Origin: an uncultured Victivallales bacterium
Lineage (GTDB): Bacteria > Verrucomicrobiota > Lentisphaeria > Victivallales > UBA1829
DNA: 64,000 bases
Direction: 5' to 3'
Assembly (NCBI GenBank): GCA_944391115.1
Contig: CALXSJ010000004.1
Location: forward strand, 1-64,000
This document shows, piece after piece, positions 7,078 through 50,464 of the stretch; position 1 is the stretch's first letter; every line of letters begins with the position of its first letter. The position numbers were made by a program, and so were the translations under genes. The notes under the pieces were generated by a model. That model did not search any database. It had not been told where the DNA came from and worked only from the letters and a program-made list of their open reading frames with translations.

Positions 7078-7785
7078 ATGGGAAACTGCACTTCAGGGGA
7101 AGAGCTCAAGGCCTGCATCGACAAACTTCACACATGGATTCTGGAAGAAATCCGAGACATCGGGAATTACATTCTGATTCTGAAGCATCTGGAACTCAGG
7201 CGCTGGAATTCCAATGACGCAAAAGCGACCGCACTTTACAAAATGCTCTATGTCAAAACAGGACATCTGAAGATCAAACGAGCCTTCAGTCAGCTGGAGA
7301 TCAAAAAATTCATTGATTCTCAGGATTCCATTCTGAAACTGATCCGTAACTTGTCCGGTCTGCTGCAGGAGATTGAGAAAGCGGAAAAGCGGATCAGAAA
7401 ATGGAAGAATTTCGGAAGCGCACTTGTCGGTCTGATTGATTCAGCATCCGATATCGAGGCGGACAGGAGGAGAGGAAGGGAAACCGTCAATGAGATCATT
7501 GACGACTTTCTTGAGGCGAAAAAATCCCTGAATACCGTCTTCCGGCTGGCAAAAATGATGAACCGGAAAAATATCCCTGTTGTAAAAGAGATTCTCGACG
7601 GATATTTTGATTTCTTCCTGAAAGCGGACGGCATCTGCTCCAAGGTCGCCGGCTACGCAGAAAAAATCCACAGCGAAACAGAGAGGCTGAAAAGTATTTG
7701 GGCGGAAGCGGAAAACAACGGTATGAGCTATCTGAACCTGAGAAGGAAAGCACTTCTGAATCTGAAAAAGGAACTTTATCAGTAA
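7078..7785 (+). CDS. Helical protein of unknown function, 235 aa
   Basis: I do not recognise this family. The sequence is almost entirely predicted helix with many charged Lys/Glu pairs and coiled-coil-like heptads (residues 95-125 and 190-225), no signal peptide and one short hydrophobic stretch. The ribosome site GGAAAGGA lies 8 nt before the ATG. Its end overlaps by 7 bp the end of a convergent gene for a secreted TPR-like protein. The segment YAEKIHSETE near residue 200 recurs, identical at DNA level over about 29 bp, in a C-terminal fragment at 8864-8998, which shows that a second copy once existed. Confidence 0.7.
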   Translation: MGNCTSGEELKACIDKLHTWILEEIRDIGNYILILKHLELRRWNSNDAKATALYKMLYVKTGHLKIKRAFSQLEIKKFIDSQDSILKLIRNLSGLLQEIEKAEKRIRKWKNFGSALVGLIDSASDIEADRRRGRETVNEIIDDFLEAKKSLNTVFRLAKMMNRKNIPVVKEILDGYFDFFLKADGICSKVAGYAEKIHSETERLKSIWAEAENNGMSYLNLRRKALLNLKKELYQ

Positions 7786-8780
7786 AGAAAAAAGTCATCC
7801 GTATCCTGCAATGACGGTATCGTTCGATAATAATCAGCCATGAGCCGATACCGCCACATATCTCCGATATATCCCAGCTTTCCGGCAAAAATTGCCATAT
7901 AATGATGAAATAAAGCCTTGTTGGATGGCTTCTGCTGAAAGATCTGAGAAAATCTTTTCGAGCAGTCTAAGGCTGCTGAATAATCCCCGCGCTTCTGATA
8001 ATATTCCATGAGAAGTTTATATGCAGCAGGGAAAAAGATCTTTTCATCAAGAGAAATCTCTGCCGCCATTTCAGACATTTGCAAGGCGAAATCTGTATCA
8101 TTCAGTGCTGAATATGTCAAGGCTGAATAATAGCAGGAAACAGCAAAAAAAGGAAAGAAACAATCTTTTTGATGCAGATAATGATCCTGGCCTTTTAAAA
8201 AACAGGACAAAGCATCCTGATATTTTTTTTCATAAAATAAAATTTTACCTTTTGTTTCATAATAAGCAGCCAGAATTTCTGAAATTGCATCTGGATTATC
8301 TGTATTTCCCGGTTCTTTTTCAAGGAGTTGCACGCATGATGCGGCTACTTGCAGATAAGCATCTCTTTTTTCAATATTGCCGGTTTTATTGCAGGAATCC
8401 ATTAACGCAATATAAATCTCAAGTTTCCGGGTCAAAATAATCTTCCGGTTATCCGTGTCTGTCTCCAAGGCTTTTTCCAGAAAAAACAACGCCCCGGCAT
8501 AGTCTTTCAGGAGATATTTCGTGATCCCAAGGCGATGATTGGCAATAAAATATATGGATTCTCTGCAAGGATCATTGAGCGAGAGCTTCCCCTGGAGTTT
8601 TAATATTTGAAGAAGATACCGGATCACCAAGCGAGAATCATTTTTTTTCTCCGCCTCAAAAACTTTTTCATACAGAACATCAATTTTTTCCCGAATCTCC
8701 TTATCCGAAAGTGTTTCCGATCCCGAACAGGGCAAGCAGAAAAGCAGAAAAAATACAGAAAACAGAAAAATTGATTTCAT
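7779..8780 (-). CDS. Secreted TPR-like repeat protein, copy 1
   Basis: The 333-residue protein has a signal peptide (MKSIFLFSVFFLLFCLPCSG) followed by helix-turn-helix repeats of the TPR type: NHRLGITKYLLKDYAGALFF, YYETKGKILFYEKKYQDALS, LLMEYYQKRGDYSAALDC. The Cys after the hydrophobic core has Pro at -1, so it is not a canonical lipobox. TPR proteins act as protein-binding scaffolds; the partner here is unknown. The gene is AT-rich compared with the flanking operons. Its first 29 codons and about 70 bp upstream are nearly identical to those of the gene at 8965-10017, whereas the rest has diverged strongly. Confidence 0.75.
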   Translation of the reverse strand: MKSIFLFSVFFLLFCLPCSGSETLSDKEIREKIDVLYEKVFEAEKKNDSRLVIRYLLQILKLQGKLSLNDPCRESIYFIANHRLGITKYLLKDYAGALFFLEKALETDTDNRKIILTRKLEIYIALMDSCNKTGNIEKRDAYLQVAASCVQLLEKEPGNTDNPDAISEILAAYYETKGKILFYEKKYQDALSCFLKGQDHYLHQKDCFFPFFAVSCYYSALTYSALNDTDFALQMSEMAAEISLDEKIFFPAAYKLLMEYYQKRGDYSAALDCSKRFSQIFQQKPSNKALFHHYMAIFAGKLGYIGDMWRYRLMADYYRTIPSLQDTDDFFLY

Positions 8781-8863: not shown

Positions 8864-8998
8864 AGACTTGCTGACTACGCAGAAAAAATCCACAGCGAAA
8901 CAGAAAAAACACTTGGACATAAAAGTGATCTGATGAACGCACTGAACAACAAGAACAGCGTTTATCATTTGCTTTGCGATAAATTAATTCGGAAATAA
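8864..8998 (+). pseudogene. C-terminal fragment of a second helical-protein gene
   Basis: The frame reads RLADYAEKIHSETEKTLGHK, then SDLMNALNNKNSVYHLLCD and KLIRK before a TAA at 8996. It repeats YAEKIHSETE of the 235-residue protein at 7078-7785 with identical DNA over about 29 bp, but continues with a different tail. No start codon or ribosome site is present. The fragment ends inside the convergent TPR gene copy 2 (34-bp overlap), repeating the tail-to-tail layout of copy 1. Confidence 0.7.
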
Positions 8999-10017
8999 GC
9001 ACCTAATGTTTTTTCCAGAGACTGCATCGGAACAATTTCAGAAGCAGACTTCAAAAAAAATTCCGATTTCTCCGGTTCCCCCGACAGCAAATACAGTTTC
9101 CCCATGCAGTAGTAAATATCCGCTTTGCAAAGCGTGTTTCCCTTTGAGGAATGCAGATTGCACCACTGCAGATACTGGGCGGACTCCTGCAGGGCGGTAT
9201 CATATTCCCTTTTCTGAAGATAAGCACGAATCAAAAGGACATAGACATAATCCGGAAAACGATCCATTCGTGCATATATCTGGATGGCACGTTTGGAATA
9301 TTCTATACTTTTATCCCAGTCTTGCCGCAGAAAATAAAGCCATGCAATCCGGAAAAGAATGTCTTTTCTGGCTGCAATATTGTATTCGGCCTGCGTTGAA
9401 TACAACTGCTCCATTTTCAAGAGCGATTCCAGTGCTTTGGCATTTTTCCCTTGATCCACATAGATTTCACTTTCAACGACATAAAAAAAATAACAGCTGT
9501 CGACTGTTCTCCGGGGATATTGTTTTTCTCCGGAAGACATGATCTGATTTTCTATAAGTTTTTTCGCTCTGCTCCATTTCCTGTCGCGTTCCTCGGGATT
9601 CCCGGTTTTATGATAGGATTTCATTAAGGCAATACAAATATCCAGTTTATGTTCCTGAAGCCATTCTCTCGCCTGGGGATGTTTTTTGTCCATGTCTGAG
9701 TTCAAGGCCTTTTCTGAGAAAGGGATTGCCTCCGCATATTGCCGCATTTCATACTTCAACGCCCCAATTCGCTGATTTGCATAGAAAAAAGCCAGACTCT
9801 TATAAGGGCTGTCATCACTTAATAATTTTTCATAATGAAGAAGTCTCTTCAGATATTCCAGGAGTTTTTCCTGATCCTGCTGTTGATCCGCTTCAAGGAT
9901 TCTCCCGTATAGTTCATTCACTTTTTTCTGAATCTCCTTATCCGAAAGTGTTTCCGATCCCGAACAGAGCAAGCAGAAAAGCAGAAAAAATACAGAAAAC
10001 AGAAAAATTGATTTCAT
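8965..10017 (-). CDS. Secreted TPR-like repeat protein, copy 2
   Basis: This 350-residue paralogue of the protein at 7779-8780 has nearly the same signal peptide (MKSIFLFSVFFLLFCLLCSG, one residue different) followed by TPR-type repeats: NQRIGALKYEMRQYAEAIPF, ILFRIAWLYFLRQDWDKSIE, LIRAYLQKREYDTALQESAQ, YCMGKLYLLSGEPEKSEFF. After residue 29 the two copies share only a general pattern. It is tail-to-tail with the fragment at 8864-8998. The function is unknown; a periplasmic or surface binding protein is the likeliest reading. Confidence 0.75.
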   Translation of the reverse strand: MKSIFLFSVFFLLFCLLCSGSETLSDKEIQKKVNELYGRILEADQQQDQEKLLEYLKRLLHYEKLLSDDSPYKSLAFFYANQRIGALKYEMRQYAEAIPFSEKALNSDMDKKHPQAREWLQEHKLDICIALMKSYHKTGNPEERDRKWSRAKKLIENQIMSSGEKQYPRRTVDSCYFFYVVESEIYVDQGKNAKALESLLKMEQLYSTQAEYNIAARKDILFRIAWLYFLRQDWDKSIEYSKRAIQIYARMDRFPDYVYVLLIRAYLQKREYDTALQESAQYLQWCNLHSSKGNTLCKADIYYCMGKLYLLSGEPEKSEFFLKSASEIVPMQSLEKTLGAYFRINLSQSK

Positions 10018-10087
10018 TGCATTTCCTTTGGAAATAATTGTAAAAATACAATAACATCAAAAGTGGGAAAGTCAATTTTTCAATCGC
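9930..10087 (-). repeat. Direct repeat, copy 2: promoter plus signal-peptide block
   Basis: Second copy of the 158-bp block at 8693-8850. It ends exactly where hairpin array A begins (10088), so the block edge and the array edge coincide. Confidence 0.9.
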
Positions 10088-10856
10088 AAAGCGAAGCTTC
10101 GAGAGCCGCCGGAACAGGCCGCAACCTCAGGGAAACGCCCGGAACTCTCGCAACTGAAAAGAATGAAAAATATAAAAATATGCTCTCACATTTTTTGTCT
10201 CTTTTAAGAAAAAAATTGCGACAGCAATTTTAATTCGTGCAGGACTTTCAGTCCTGCCGCGATCCAGCTGCGTAAGCTGGGCGCCGAAGGCGAAATAAAA
10301 TCTGCGCGCGCAGCTGCGCAAAAAAATAACTTGCAACGCAAATTATGATTCATGCAGGACTTTCAGTCCTGCCGCGATCCAGCTGCGTAAGCTGGGCGCC
10401 GAAGGCGAAATCTCCTCCGGCGGCGGTTCCAACCGCTGAAGGACGAGAAGCGCTTCTTCGAGAGCCGCCGGGACAGTGTGTAACCTCGTGAAAATGCCCG
10501 GCACTCTCGCTGTTAAAAATATATTGAAATGATATGGGGAGGCCCGGAGCTCTCGAACTTTTCCTGAGGAAAAGTTCTCGTCACTGAGCGGTCTGAACCG
10601 CTCCGGGCGGGGGATTTCGTGCTCCGCACGACCAGCGTTCCGACGCTGGACCCCGGCAAGGGTCAACGACCCTTGAACCCGAGAAAATGCCATGCATTTT
10701 TCCGTCTCTAAAAACTGCGCAAGCTGGGCGCCGGAGGCGAAATCTCCTCCGGGCGGGGATTTCGTGCTCCGCACGACCAGCGTTCCGACGCTGGACCCCG
10801 GCAAGGGTCAACGACCCTTGACCCCGGGAAAATGCCATGCATTTTTCCGTTTTCTG
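10088..10856. repeat. Hairpin array A: chain of short tight-loop palindromes
   Basis: This 769-bp gene-free stretch is a run of small perfect inverted repeats, nearly all with 2-5 nt loops. Examples: AAAATTGC-GACA-GCAATTTT (10212-10231), GCAGGACT-TTC-AGTCCTGC (10239-10257 and 10354-10372), CCAGCT-GCGTA-AGCTGG (10264-10280), CGCC-GAA-GGCG (10282-10292), 10-bp arms GAACTTTTCC/GGAAAAGTTC with loop TGA, GTGC-TCC-GCAC, CCAGCGT-TCCG-ACGCTGG, CAAGGGTC-AAC-GACCCTTG, GAAAATGC-CAT-GCATTTTTC. Parts recur in tandem with a 145-bp period (from 10614 and 10759). The same chain occurs at 41117-41822. Open frames across it are shadows. The last hairpin may terminate kbl transcription. Confidence 0.85.
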
Positions 10857-40553: not shown

Positions 40554-41012
40554 TCATTTCCATTGCTCCATGCGCCGTTGCAGACGCACCATGTATTCGG
40601 TCAGGCGCGTCCGCTCTTCCGGTGTGAATTCGTTCATGATCCCGTGAACGAGTTCCAGATAGGCGGGTTCCAGTTTTTCCAGGAATTCCACGCCTTCCCC
40701 GGTCAGCTTCAGGCGGTAGAAACGCCGGTCGCGTTTTTCCCGGAAGCGGCGGACGAAACCGAGTTTCACGAGTCCGTCGATCAATCCGGTCAGATTGGAT
40801 TTGTCCACAAGCAGGCGTTCGCTCAAATCCTGCTGGGAGAGCGCCCGTTCGGCGTAGCGGAGCGCCATCAGGACGTTGAACTGCGATTCGGCAACGGTTT
40901 GATCCCGGAAAAAACGTCTTGCAATCTGCCTGAGCAGAACACCGGACCACCAGACTCCCATCAGGGCCTCGTGTTCCGCGTCCTCGAAACGGTTGACGGA
41001 ATTGAACGGCAT
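40554..41012 (-). CDS. MarR-family transcriptional regulator
   Basis: The 152-residue protein has the MarR winged helix: LSQQDLSERLLVDKSNLTGL as recognition region (residues 60-85), LVKLGFVRRFREKRDRRFYR as the wing with the conserved DRR, and a long C-terminal dimerisation helix. MarR proteins are usually repressors released by small phenolic or lipid ligands. The start at 41012 has AAAGGA 7 nt upstream. It heads the seven-gene operon and sits under a promoter overlaid by a perfect 12-bp inverted repeat, so autorepression of the whole operon is likely. Confidence 0.9.
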   Translation of the reverse strand: MPFNSVNRFEDAEHEALMGVWWSGVLLRQIARRFFRDQTVAESQFNVLMALRYAERALSQQDLSERLLVDKSNLTGLIDGLVKLGFVRRFREKRDRRFYRLKLTGEGVEFLEKLEPAYLELVHGIMNEFTPEERTRLTEYMVRLQRRMEQWK

Positions 41013-41116: not shown

Positions 41117-41822
41117 AAAATTGCGACAGCAATTTTGATTCGTGCAGGACTTTCAGTCCTGCCGCGCTCCAGCTGCGTAAGCTGGTCGCGCAAAGCGCGA
41201 AATTTCCTCCGGCGGCGGTTCCATACGCTAAAGGACGAGAAGCGAAGCTTCGAGAGCCGCCGGCACTGTGTACAACATCGGGGATATAATCGGAGCTCTC
41301 GTGGTTCATTACTATTGAAGAGACGGAAGAATGCTCACGCATTCTTCCGTCTCAATGAATACGCCCGGAGCTCTCGAACTTTTCTAGTGAAAAGTTCTCG
41401 TCAATGAGCGGCTGAACCGCTCCGGGCGGGAATTTCGTGCTCCGCACGACCAGCGTTTCGTCGCTGGACCACGACAAGGGTCAACGACCCTTGACCCCGA
41501 GAAGAATGCTTACGCATTCTTCCATCTCAATGAATACGCCCGGAGCTCTCGAACTTTTCTAGTGAAAAGTTCTCGTCAATGAGCGGCTGAACCGCTCCGG
41601 GCGGGAATTTCGTGCTCCGCACGACCAGCGTTTCGACGCTGGATCACGACAAGGGTCAACGACCCTTGACCCCGAGAAGAATGCATGCGCATTCTTCCGT
41701 CTCATGACCGAGTCATGGACAAGATTTCGTGCTCCGCACGACCAGCGTTTCGACGCTGGATCACGACAAGGGTCAGCGACCCTTGACCCCGAGAAGAATG
41801 CCCGCGCATTCTTCCGTTTCAA
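41117..41822. repeat. Hairpin array B: chain of short tight-loop palindromes
   Basis: This 706-bp gene-free region carries the same kind of chain as 10088-10856 in the same orientation: AAAATTGC-GACA-GCAATTTT (41117-41136), GCAGGACT-TTC-AGTCCTGC (41144-41162), TCGCGC-AAA-GCGCGA (41186-41200), GAAGC-GAA-GCTTC (41239-41251), a perfect 15-bp stem GAGACGGAAGAATGC with loop TCAC (41320-41353), and CATGAC-CGA-GTCATG (41703-41717). A 175-bp unit is repeated in tandem (from 41361 and 41536) with a shortened third unit from about 41724. Loops of one hairpin vary between units (TTAC, ATGC, CCGC) while its arms stay fixed. Confidence 0.88.
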
Positions 41823-41932
41823 GGGAGAATATTAATTTTATTAATTTTATTTTAAATTTTATTAATTTTAATCTTGATTTTATTAAAGAATCATTTATAA
41901 TTAAGAAAGGATACCGGAAGCGGAAAAAGCGT

Positions 41933-42301
41933 ATGGCAAAAGATCATTTTTCGAAAAACTGTCAGAACTGCGGCGGCGAACTCCACATCACGCGAATGGA
42001 ATGCGGCGCCTGCGGACTCGCCGTCGAAGGAAATCTCAAACTCCCGCGCCTGGCGCGCCTGAGCGCCGAGGACCGCGAATTCATCGAACTTTTTCTCCTT
42101 TCCGCCGGTTCCCTGAAGGAGGTCGGAAAAATTCTCGAACTCTCCTATCCGACCGTCCGGAACCGTCTGTACCGGGTGATCGCGCATCTCAGGGACCTCG
42201 ACCGCGACCGCCGGACGGAACGTCTGAAGATCATCCATGAGCTGGAAGGCGGCGGAATAACCGCAGAAGAGGCCGCGCGCCGTCTTGCTGAAATCTCCTG
42301 A
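41933..42301 (+). CDS. DUF2089-family zinc-ribbon/HTH regulator-like protein
   Basis: The 122-residue protein opens with a zinc ribbon (NCQNCGGELHITRMECGACG) and continues with the DUF2089 core ARLSAEDREFIELFLLSAGS, KEVGKILELSYPTVRNRLYR, which looks like a sigma-region-4-type helix-turn-helix, and ends in a short helical hairpin (GGGITAEEAARRLAEIS). Such proteins are presumed regulators of unknown targets, often next to membrane genes. The ATG at 41933 is the first after the AT-rich leader. It is followed at 27 bp by the large membrane-protein gene, with which it is probably cotranscribed. Confidence 0.85.
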   Translation: MAKDHFSKNCQNCGGELHITRMECGACGLAVEGNLKLPRLARLSAEDREFIELFLLSAGSLKEVGKILELSYPTVRNRLYRVIAHLRDLDRDRRTERLKIIHELEGGGITAEEAARRLAEIS

Positions 42302-50200: not shown

Positions 50201-50330
50201 TCACCGACGGCGTGATGTCCGGGTAGAGCGTGACCGGAAGCGTAAAGACGGCGATCAGCCCGCTGAGCAGAAAAAGAATCGCCAGCACAATGGCGAAGCG
50301 GGGCCGCCGGATGAAAAATTCACTGATCAT
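47208..50330 (-). CDS. RND efflux pump inner-membrane subunit (AcrB/HAE1 family)
   Basis: The 1040-residue protein has the full RND layout: TM1 at 10-32, a periplasmic porter domain, TM2-6, a second porter domain and TM8-12. Proton-relay residues are present: D410-D411 in GIVVDDAIVVIENVSR and the lysine in FGIACKTAILIVEFAKE. It exports hydrophobic compounds or bile acids by proton antiport together with the upstream adaptor. Ribosome site AAGGGA. A 134-bp gap with a terminator-like hairpin separates it from the adaptor gene. No TolC-type gene is adjacent. Confidence 0.95.
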   Translation of the reverse strand: MISEFFIRRPRFAIVLAILFLLSGLIAVFTLPVTLYPDITPSVITVSAHYPGADAQTVLDTVIQPIESQINGVKKMIYMSSTATDDGSASIKVTFDIGTDGDTNTVNTQNRVNWATAQLPQEVQRQGVITKEASSNILAVITLYSPKGTYDELALSNFMSISIKDEIARIPGVGDVMAFGEMTYAMRIWLDTMRMASLKVTVEDVKNAITAQNVQVSAGALGDAPSDPAQTERLSIAAQGRLANPEEFGAIVIRSNPDGSQLRLRDVARVEMGAETYSGVTTLNGKPAAMLAVYQLNEANGLEIAKEIQNRLKRLRGTVFPEDLEYGVQYDTTRFITSSINEVKDTLFEAVLLVVLVTFLFLQDWRSTLVPTIAIPVSLVGTFAVMLAVGYSINMTTLFGLILAIGIVVDDAIVVIENVSRLMEEEHLPPKEAALKSMRQVTAPIIATTSVLLAMFVPVCFLPGITGEMYRQFGVTISVAVFLSMINALTLSPALCALILRPADPNRRKFFFFRWFDAGFEKLTRGYSAVVKSLLRKSVLVILLYAAMGAGALKLYTILPTGFVPNEDQGAFFVSVQLPDGASLARTSKVTGKVTALLRGIPEVQDFIFASGFNILNGINASNCAFGIVILKDWSERKGPGQGQDAVLAEFYAKARQIPDASIIPFGVPAIPGLGTTGGFSLMLQDTSGNLKPQAFQKILNRILVEANNSPVFSNVYSTFRASFPQVYLDIDREKAIRLGVTPDSINTALQGIFGSAYVNDFNKYGKSYKVKLQGDKLFRDDVRDLSKAYVRNDQGEMVPLGTLVGIRYNFVPQYLTRYNMFQSVLVNGSAAPGYSSGQAMNEMERIVKEVDPSLSFEWTDMSYQEKLAGNRIVIVFALALLFIYLFLVAQYESWMIPFSVLLSVPVAFLGAVLSLYLLGIDNNIYTQVGFVLLFGIACKTAILIVEFAKEQHEKGMGIPEAAEYAARLRFRAVLMTAVSFILGTFPLVVAIGAGAVSRRSLGTAVFGGMLLSVLAGTLLIPVFYAVVQRIIEVCRRKTE

Positions 50331-50357: not shown

Positions 50358-50390
50358 AAACGGAAAAATGCGGATGCTTTTTTCCGGGAA
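50358..50390 (-). terminator. Attenuator-like hairpin between adaptor and RND genes
   Basis: On the minus strand CGGAAAAA, a ~10-nt loop and TTTTTCCG are followed by six T residues. It lies inside the adaptor-pump operon and would reduce read-through into the pump gene. Confidence 0.6.
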
Positions 50391-50464
50391 GTCGGGAAGC
50401 GCGGTCCTGGTGCGATCCTGCGACGGTCCGCCGGAAGCGCGGAACACGAAATCCCGGCCGTACC

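Follow-up and report, generated by a model that had tools for sequence, protein, structure and literature searches.

The hairpin array at positions 41117–41817 of the 64,000-nucleotide stretch of DNA analysed here (the window), termed array B, is probably a cluster, grown by nesting and tandem expansion, of a dispersed multi-hairpin DNA element that is non-autonomous and whose stems are kept mainly by template switching. It is one of ~40 intergenic clusters of near-perfect hairpins scattered through the genome, and its multi-hairpin repeat family is Victivallales-specific, dispersed and intergenic. Covariation of the stems in this family is real. Covariation commonly counts as strong evidence for functional RNA; here the evidence on balance favours DNA rather than RNA, and RNA function is the weaker reading.

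Layout, gene context and spread of the arrays

Hairpin calling revealed ~20 nearly perfect hairpins that fill array B. Perfect hairpins with arms of at least 6 occur at 4–10 per 250 nt in the array, compared with a mean of 0.73 per 250 nt in the window, and the fold z-scores of the array are −11.0 as DNA and −21.7 as RNA. Profile searches gave the unit order Y, W, Z, X, then Z–X again and a third X (Table 1). Read backwards, X has the layout of Y, with terminal AT-rich, GGACT/GGGTC, CCAGC and TCG...CGA hairpins. The standard copy elsewhere is Y-W-Z-X, ~410 bp long, and forms a large inverted repeat with four small palindromes in each half. The perfect 15-bp stem is kept in paralogs with different arm sequences, and copies have no homology to one another beyond the right end of the element.

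Table 1 Units, hairpins and neighbouring genes of the hairpin family in the window
Feature	Position	Strand	Details	Evidence
Array A	10085–10850	+	W-Y-Y-W-Z-X-X; same family as array B	Profile matches, sequence comparison
MarR-family regulator	40554–41012	−		Pfam MarR, 1.5e-12
Y unit	41117–41203	+	Layout of X in reverse orientation	Hairpin call, profile match (Y+, 41117–41203)
Y hairpins			Y1 41117–41136, Y2 41144–41162, Y3 41169–41185, Y4 41186–41200	
W unit, central part	41207–41328	+	Outer stem CCGGCGGC/GCCGCCGG plus GAAGC-gaa-GCTTC at 41239–41251	Hairpin call, profile match, folding
Perfect 15-bp stem	41320–41353	.	GAGACGGAAGAATGC-tcac-GCATTCTTCCGTCTC; 4-nt loop	Hairpin call
Z unit	41356–41429	+	Outer stem GCCCGGAG/CTCCGGGC around Z1 and Z2	Hairpin call, profile match
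Z hairpins			Z1 41376–41397 (invertible loop), Z2 41406–41422	
X unit 1	41432–41525	+		Hairpin call, profile match, covariation
X unit 1 hairpins			H1 41435–41449, H2 41450–41467, H3 41475–41493, H4 41501–41522	
Z unit 2	41531–41604	+	Tandem copy, period 175	TRF, profile match
X unit 2	41607–41700	+	Tandem copy	TRF, profile match, covariation
Short linker hairpin	41703–41717	.	CATGAC-cga-GTCATG	Hairpin call
X unit 3	41723–41817	+	Right end of element, ...GCATTCTTCCGT	Profile match
DUF2089 zinc-ribbon/HTH protein	41936–42298	+		Pfam DUF2089, 3.9e-18
Third copy, degenerate solo X	50360–50453	−	Intergenic; flanking ORFs end at 50330 and start at 50464	Profile match

The original prediction held that array B repeats array A with changes that preserve the stems, and all the hairpins it named are present where it had placed them. 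CGCC-GAA-GGCG in A matches TCGCGC-AAA-GCGCGA in B (41186–41200), each preceded by GCTGG, while a 7-bp AAAATGC stem in A corresponds to a 9-bp GAAGAATGC stem in B, and B also has the 15-bp stem listed in Table 1. The loops TCAC, TTAC, ATGC and CCGC and the change from AAC to AGC were borne out, as were the 175-bp tandem units, which consist of Z+X (2.2 copies, 96% in TRF). GAAGC-GAA-GCTTC, put forward as the B variant, does occur in B but is not specific to it, as array A has the same hairpin at 10089. The solo X on the minus strand is an addition to that earlier list. Beside array A, two adjacent TPR-repeat genes (7779–8780 and 8965–10017, minus strand) have a 215-nt stretch in common at 89% identity, and this similarity suggests that the pair is probably a tandem gene duplication.

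Array B lies between the MarR-family and DUF2089 genes, a divergent pair according to Pfam. In a promoter scan based on consensus matches only, the best promoter-like site of the MarR gene (41090–41062, minus strand) falls outside array B and is directed away from it; that of the DUF2089 gene (41874–41901) lies downstream of the array and is likewise directed away. Across five MAGs the arrays are mostly intergenic, with 9 of 83 regions overlapping a predicted gene. The gene contexts of these 83 regions were 44 tandem, 32 convergent and 7 divergent, as scored by a crude gene caller that placed the MarR gene on the wrong strand and therefore counted array B as tandem. Of 11 solo X units in tandem contexts, 10 are oriented with the coding strand, a bias that could come from a transcript-level role or from insertion linked to replication direction.

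The 706-nt query gave 93 matches in the host genome (G000; 3.66 Mb, 44 contigs), several of them at contig ends. Among genomes sharing exact 23-mers, the named carriers are Victivallales or Lentisphaeria MAGs and the others correspond to relatives of this genome. Two genomes of the same genus (G001 and G003) hold the family at 85–96% identity, and genus g10 has mainly X by itself. Families f1, f2, f4 and f7 of the order have multiple copies of the core pattern CGACCAGCG-N4-7-CGCTGGA, which beyond the order reaches at most 1–2 copies per genome; a scrambled palindrome used as control gave 6 matches in 198 genomes. Other families of the order retain H1 and H2 with a third stem (H3) of different sequence, and in several families H2, stem and loop alike, shows the strongest conservation. 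The distribution is patchy, with 51 core copies in G190 and zero in most of its sister species. Single species (G190, G052, G050, G187, G180 and G012) carry 13–51 copies of the core hairpin, and many sister species carry none. No match was found in Rfam, either at the gathering threshold or at E ≤ 1, among viral contigs (exact 23-mer) or among plasmids, and a tRNA/tmRNA search returned none. Short tandem GATTTCGTGCTTCGCA runs directly precede an X unit in genus g10 (L223/L224 in G019 and L226 in G026), which suggests that slippage has expanded the first hairpin locally.

Pairing, covariation and loop inversion

In an anchored alignment of 58 X units, 98.7% of stem cells are paired, compared with 95.6% after shuffling and 35–41% after sliding. 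Double-change cells number 70 against 20.1 expected, a value reached in 0 of 500 shuffles; both controls allow only partly for relatedness of the units and involve no tree-based null. Matching stems of A, B and other copies thus differ with pairing kept, beyond the shuffled and slid controls, as had been proposed. Hairpin calling, which favours perfect stems, returned 939 of 998 hairpins without a mismatch. Parsimony on two rough trees gave 20–45 two-sided steps from one Watson–Crick pair to another and 11–12 one-sided steps each for G-T and A-C; any single tree is unreliable because the copies recombine.

A stem in RNA accommodates G-U, read on its own strand, but not A-C. Among 1606 stem cells of the 58 X units, a count that leaves out the outer H1 pair, 1579 are Watson–Crick, 13 G-T, 11 A-C and 3 other, so that a preference for G-U over A-C on one strand is absent from these units. 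Ortholog hairpins show 18 G-T and 15 A-C pairs, and unique called stems 6 and 17, respectively, the latter from a biased caller. This rare, strand-symmetric wobble favours DNA over RNA.

A structured RNA, either a non-coding RNA or a 3′-UTR element with a selected fold and compensatory changes reflecting purifying selection, would account for the strong covariation and the RNA fold z-score (−21.7), for the enrichment of arrays between convergent or co-directional genes together with the strand bias of X in tandem contexts, for the conserved H2, Y3 and Z2 loops, and for a core layout shared by families of the order whose H3 stems differ. We nevertheless regard it as distinctly unlikely: wobble is almost absent, with G-T no commoner than A-C, the predicted promoters beside array B are directed away, Rfam holds no match even at E ≤ 1, presence is patchy even among the sister species of G190, and loops invert.

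These inversions are directly readable in a comparison of G000 and G001, in which arrays occupy orthologous places. Among 221 compared ortholog hairpins, a total in which some appear more than once, 85 are identical; in 74 the loop alone differs. The loop of Z1 is exactly inverted in three locus pairs: TGT to ACA (L093/L129), GCT to AGC in both tandem copies of L100/L191, and CAGCA to TGCTG (L094/L128). X and Y share their stems but point in opposite directions, so orientation was fixed for a count across all copies. In Z1, 8 pairs of loops are reverse complements of each other, compared with a mean of 1.8 under the null (reached in 0 of 2000 simulations); the control counts were 0 for simple reversal and 2 for simple complementation. 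For H4 the corresponding figures are 4 and 1.3 (p = 0.027), and short-arm hairpins show no loop inversion above chance in the same count. The two hairpins with an excess, Z1 and H4, have arms of 9–10 bp. Template switching between the arms of inverted repeats produces arm homogenization and spacer inversion (PMC8604942, PMC8794818), and in yeast spacer inversion was seen only with arms over 9 bp (PMC8604942); template switching has also been put forward as the maker and keeper of RNA hairpins (PMC8794818). Enrichment of whole-loop inversions only in long-arm hairpins is therefore a template-switch signature. On a larger scale, a 1.9-kb segment holding one large predicted membrane-protein gene and flanked by two oppositely oriented arrays (L094:3090–4958, G000:C15) is inverted relative to its counterpart (L128:3242–5099, G001:C24), so arrays probably serve as inversion sites.

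Exchange between copies contributes too, as indicated by an apex-block replacement with near-identical flanks (L110/L197, CCAGC[TGCGTAA]GCTGG to CCAGC[GGCGAGAC]GCTGG). Block replacement alone had been named as grounds for rejecting selection on shape; such apex-block swaps explain some of the changes, not all. As a complete account, in which whole hairpins are swapped among copies by gene conversion or short homologous exchange with neither arm copying nor shape selection, it gains from the mosaic module order and from stem alleles that recur genome-wide (T-A/C-G at H1 pair 4, A-T/G-C at H4 pair 4). It is unlikely, as exact loop inversion requires antiparallel copying and stem-level conversion leaves the restriction of inversion to long-arm hairpins unexplained. 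In L118/L194, moreover, an H4 pair is altered on both sides with the uncommon loop gct retained, at a locus with several X copies and uncertain unit orthology.

The stems might instead be maintained for the sake of a host or transposon protein that has to bind the hairpins as single strands or cruciforms, independently of any mutational bias. Consistent with such a selected DNA structure, H2 with its loop is the best-conserved part in several families, and orthologs have diverged more in their spacers (7.2% substitution) than in their stems, where 1685 pairs show 79 one-sided changes. We consider it somewhat unlikely on its own, given that the putative binding protein is without a candidate, that degenerate copies such as the solo X persist, and that loop inversions reveal a mutational process operating regardless.

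We infer that the stems are kept chiefly by template switching and not by selection. Switching between arms would transfer a change in one arm to its partner and sometimes flip the loop, and exchange between copies would aid in keeping stems perfect. The recurrent stem alleles, which could also be obtained by conversion between copies, count against this reading, and the conserved loops of H2, Y3 and Z2 are not predicted by a purely mutational account. Selection on shape could act alongside this mechanism, whether on RNA or, through enzyme binding, on DNA, H2 and its loop being the most conserved part. Of the earlier proposal that the folded shape is selected, the pairing kept beyond controls therefore stands; selection is not its best-supported cause, in view of the rare symmetric wobble, the one-step double changes, the loop inversions and the dispersed nature of the DNA, which in the sister element described below is also mobile.

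A sister element and its insertion sites

Insertion geometry is provided by a non-coding sister element of 156 bp, in which hairpins Y2-Y3-Y4 are enclosed by the element's own left and right hairpins. Its left subterminal palindrome is GCGATGC-tct-GCATCGC; the right palindrome, ACCGCG...CGCGGT with an inner bulge, stands directly before the right-end TTTAT. Most of the copies examined in G001 are 96–98% identical to the copy at L107 and lie at unrelated sites. We searched the joined flanks of eight G001 copies in G000 and obtained two matches across the joint, at 97–99%. Both are precise empty sites (L255, ...CGGATTTATTCTTTC, against L254 in G001; L257 against L241). The empty G000 sites hold a single TTTAT, whereas G001 has TTTAT-element-TTNAT, which indicates that the sister element enters 3′ of TTTAT with no duplication. 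The left TTTAT is constant at these empty-site pairs, and the right end is TTNAT. A target-site duplication, considered because TTTATT can flank the element on both sides, was rejected, as G003 copies read TTGAT at the left end and TTCAT at the right, and L254 has TTTAT and TTGAT. Tandem copies join directly at the right-end TTNAT, as would follow from use of that end as the target of a further insertion. ISDra2 inserts 3′ of TTGAT (PMC2806898), and the chemistry of IS200/IS605 elements and the dissemination of REP sequences have been described (PMC6006769, PMC8266576). By analogy, insertion of the sister element matches IS200/IS605 behaviour and the definition of PATEs, the IS605-derived palindrome-associated elements of Haloquadratum, where the IS200-type transposases are pseudogenes (PMC3119063).

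Many contigs of G003 and G001 terminate within the sister element (for example G003:C53:3–139 and C50:4–140; G001:C23:3–158 and C54:1–77), so assembly is hampered by these repeats and copy counts fall short of the true number.

The larger arrays also vary between genomes, which is indirect evidence that their units move. One array, consisting of two sister-type copies and an X, is absent from G001, where 22 nt separate the flanks in place of 397; these flanks are too diverged to define the ends. Another site has a single X in G003 and Y-W-Z-X-Y-X in G000. G001 and G003 both carry array B at the orthologous position, so that no empty site was found for it there, and its X units are fewer in the assembled G001 sequence than in G000. 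In an empty-site comparison for the solo X copies of G012 within its genus, the flanks were strongly diverged.

Searches of G000, G001 and G003, on MAGs that are 94–95% complete, returned no intact Y1/RAYT transposase, and the RAYT model NF047646 had no match in G000–G003 and a weak sub-cut-off match in G012. Broken remnants of an IS200-type TnpA occur in G000 (L127:2580–2880, C35) and G001 (L271, C3:76606–76746), with none in G003; they are the only Y1 traces detected, and the G000 remnant adjoins a tRNA-like sequence. RAYT or Y1 was rejected as the cognate enzyme, because no intact gene turned up in these three genomes and the presence of Y1 across relatives does not track array abundance. 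The cognate enzyme may have been lost, remain unassembled or be of a different type.

From the insertion geometry of the sister element, we infer that the large array likewise moves as a single strand through an HUH enzyme. The basic cassette would be H1–H4 in both orientations (Y and X), with W and Z as inner units. Most likely the family moves through intergenic DNA as single strands, its hairpins being recognised in trans by an HUH transposase of IS200/IS605 type. Arrays would grow locally by insertion beside existing copies and by unequal recombination.

Comparison with known systems

By analogy, array B may be likened to REP/BIME sequences or to PATEs. The sister element resembles the latter in being too short to code, in its near-terminal palindromes and conserved 5′ oligonucleotide target without target duplication, and in its strain-specific insertions despite IS200-type transposases that are pseudogenes; Haloquadratum PATEs pose the same puzzle of a missing transposase (PMC3119063). 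In contrast to PATEs, the elements here hold a common inner cassette of further hairpins and form long mosaics with inverted copies, and precise insertion is seen with the sister element, whereas the large Y-W-Z-X array may or may not insert likewise. With REPs, BIMEs and REPINs the family has in common high-copy intergenic palindromes, mosaics of inverted copies, tandem clusters and a scarcity between divergent genes. It differs in that its units are four-hairpin cassettes of ~95 nt rather than single 20–40-nt hairpins, in a right end with CCGT after the hairpin and no GTAG foot seen, and in the lack of a RAYT match in G000–G003.

Structured non-coding RNAs of the kind collected in Rfam likewise have covarying helices and a stable fold. 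Unlike them, this family matches no Rfam entry, lacks wobble asymmetry and is taxonomically patchy, and array B lies outside any predicted transcript.

Tentatively, the family may represent a new Victivallales-specific mobile class, a cassette of several hairpins arranged about the conserved core CCAGCG-loop-CGCTGG, moving as single strands and acquiring RNA-like covariation in hundreds of copies from DNA template switching; we hold this to be a serious possibility rather than a probable one. Our analysis adds a family of Victivallales hairpin elements, of which we found no description in the literature and which breaks metagenome assemblies. The closest mutational parallel is quasipalindrome correction, which shows the same arm homogenization, two-sided changes and restriction of whole-loop inversion to long arms (PMC8604942, PMC8794818). 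In this family such correction would operate on hundreds of paralogous hairpins within a single genome and thus be visible across copies. With its two-sided changes, rare symmetric wobble and loop inversion, the family offers a natural test set for separating selection on RNA from template-switch copying.
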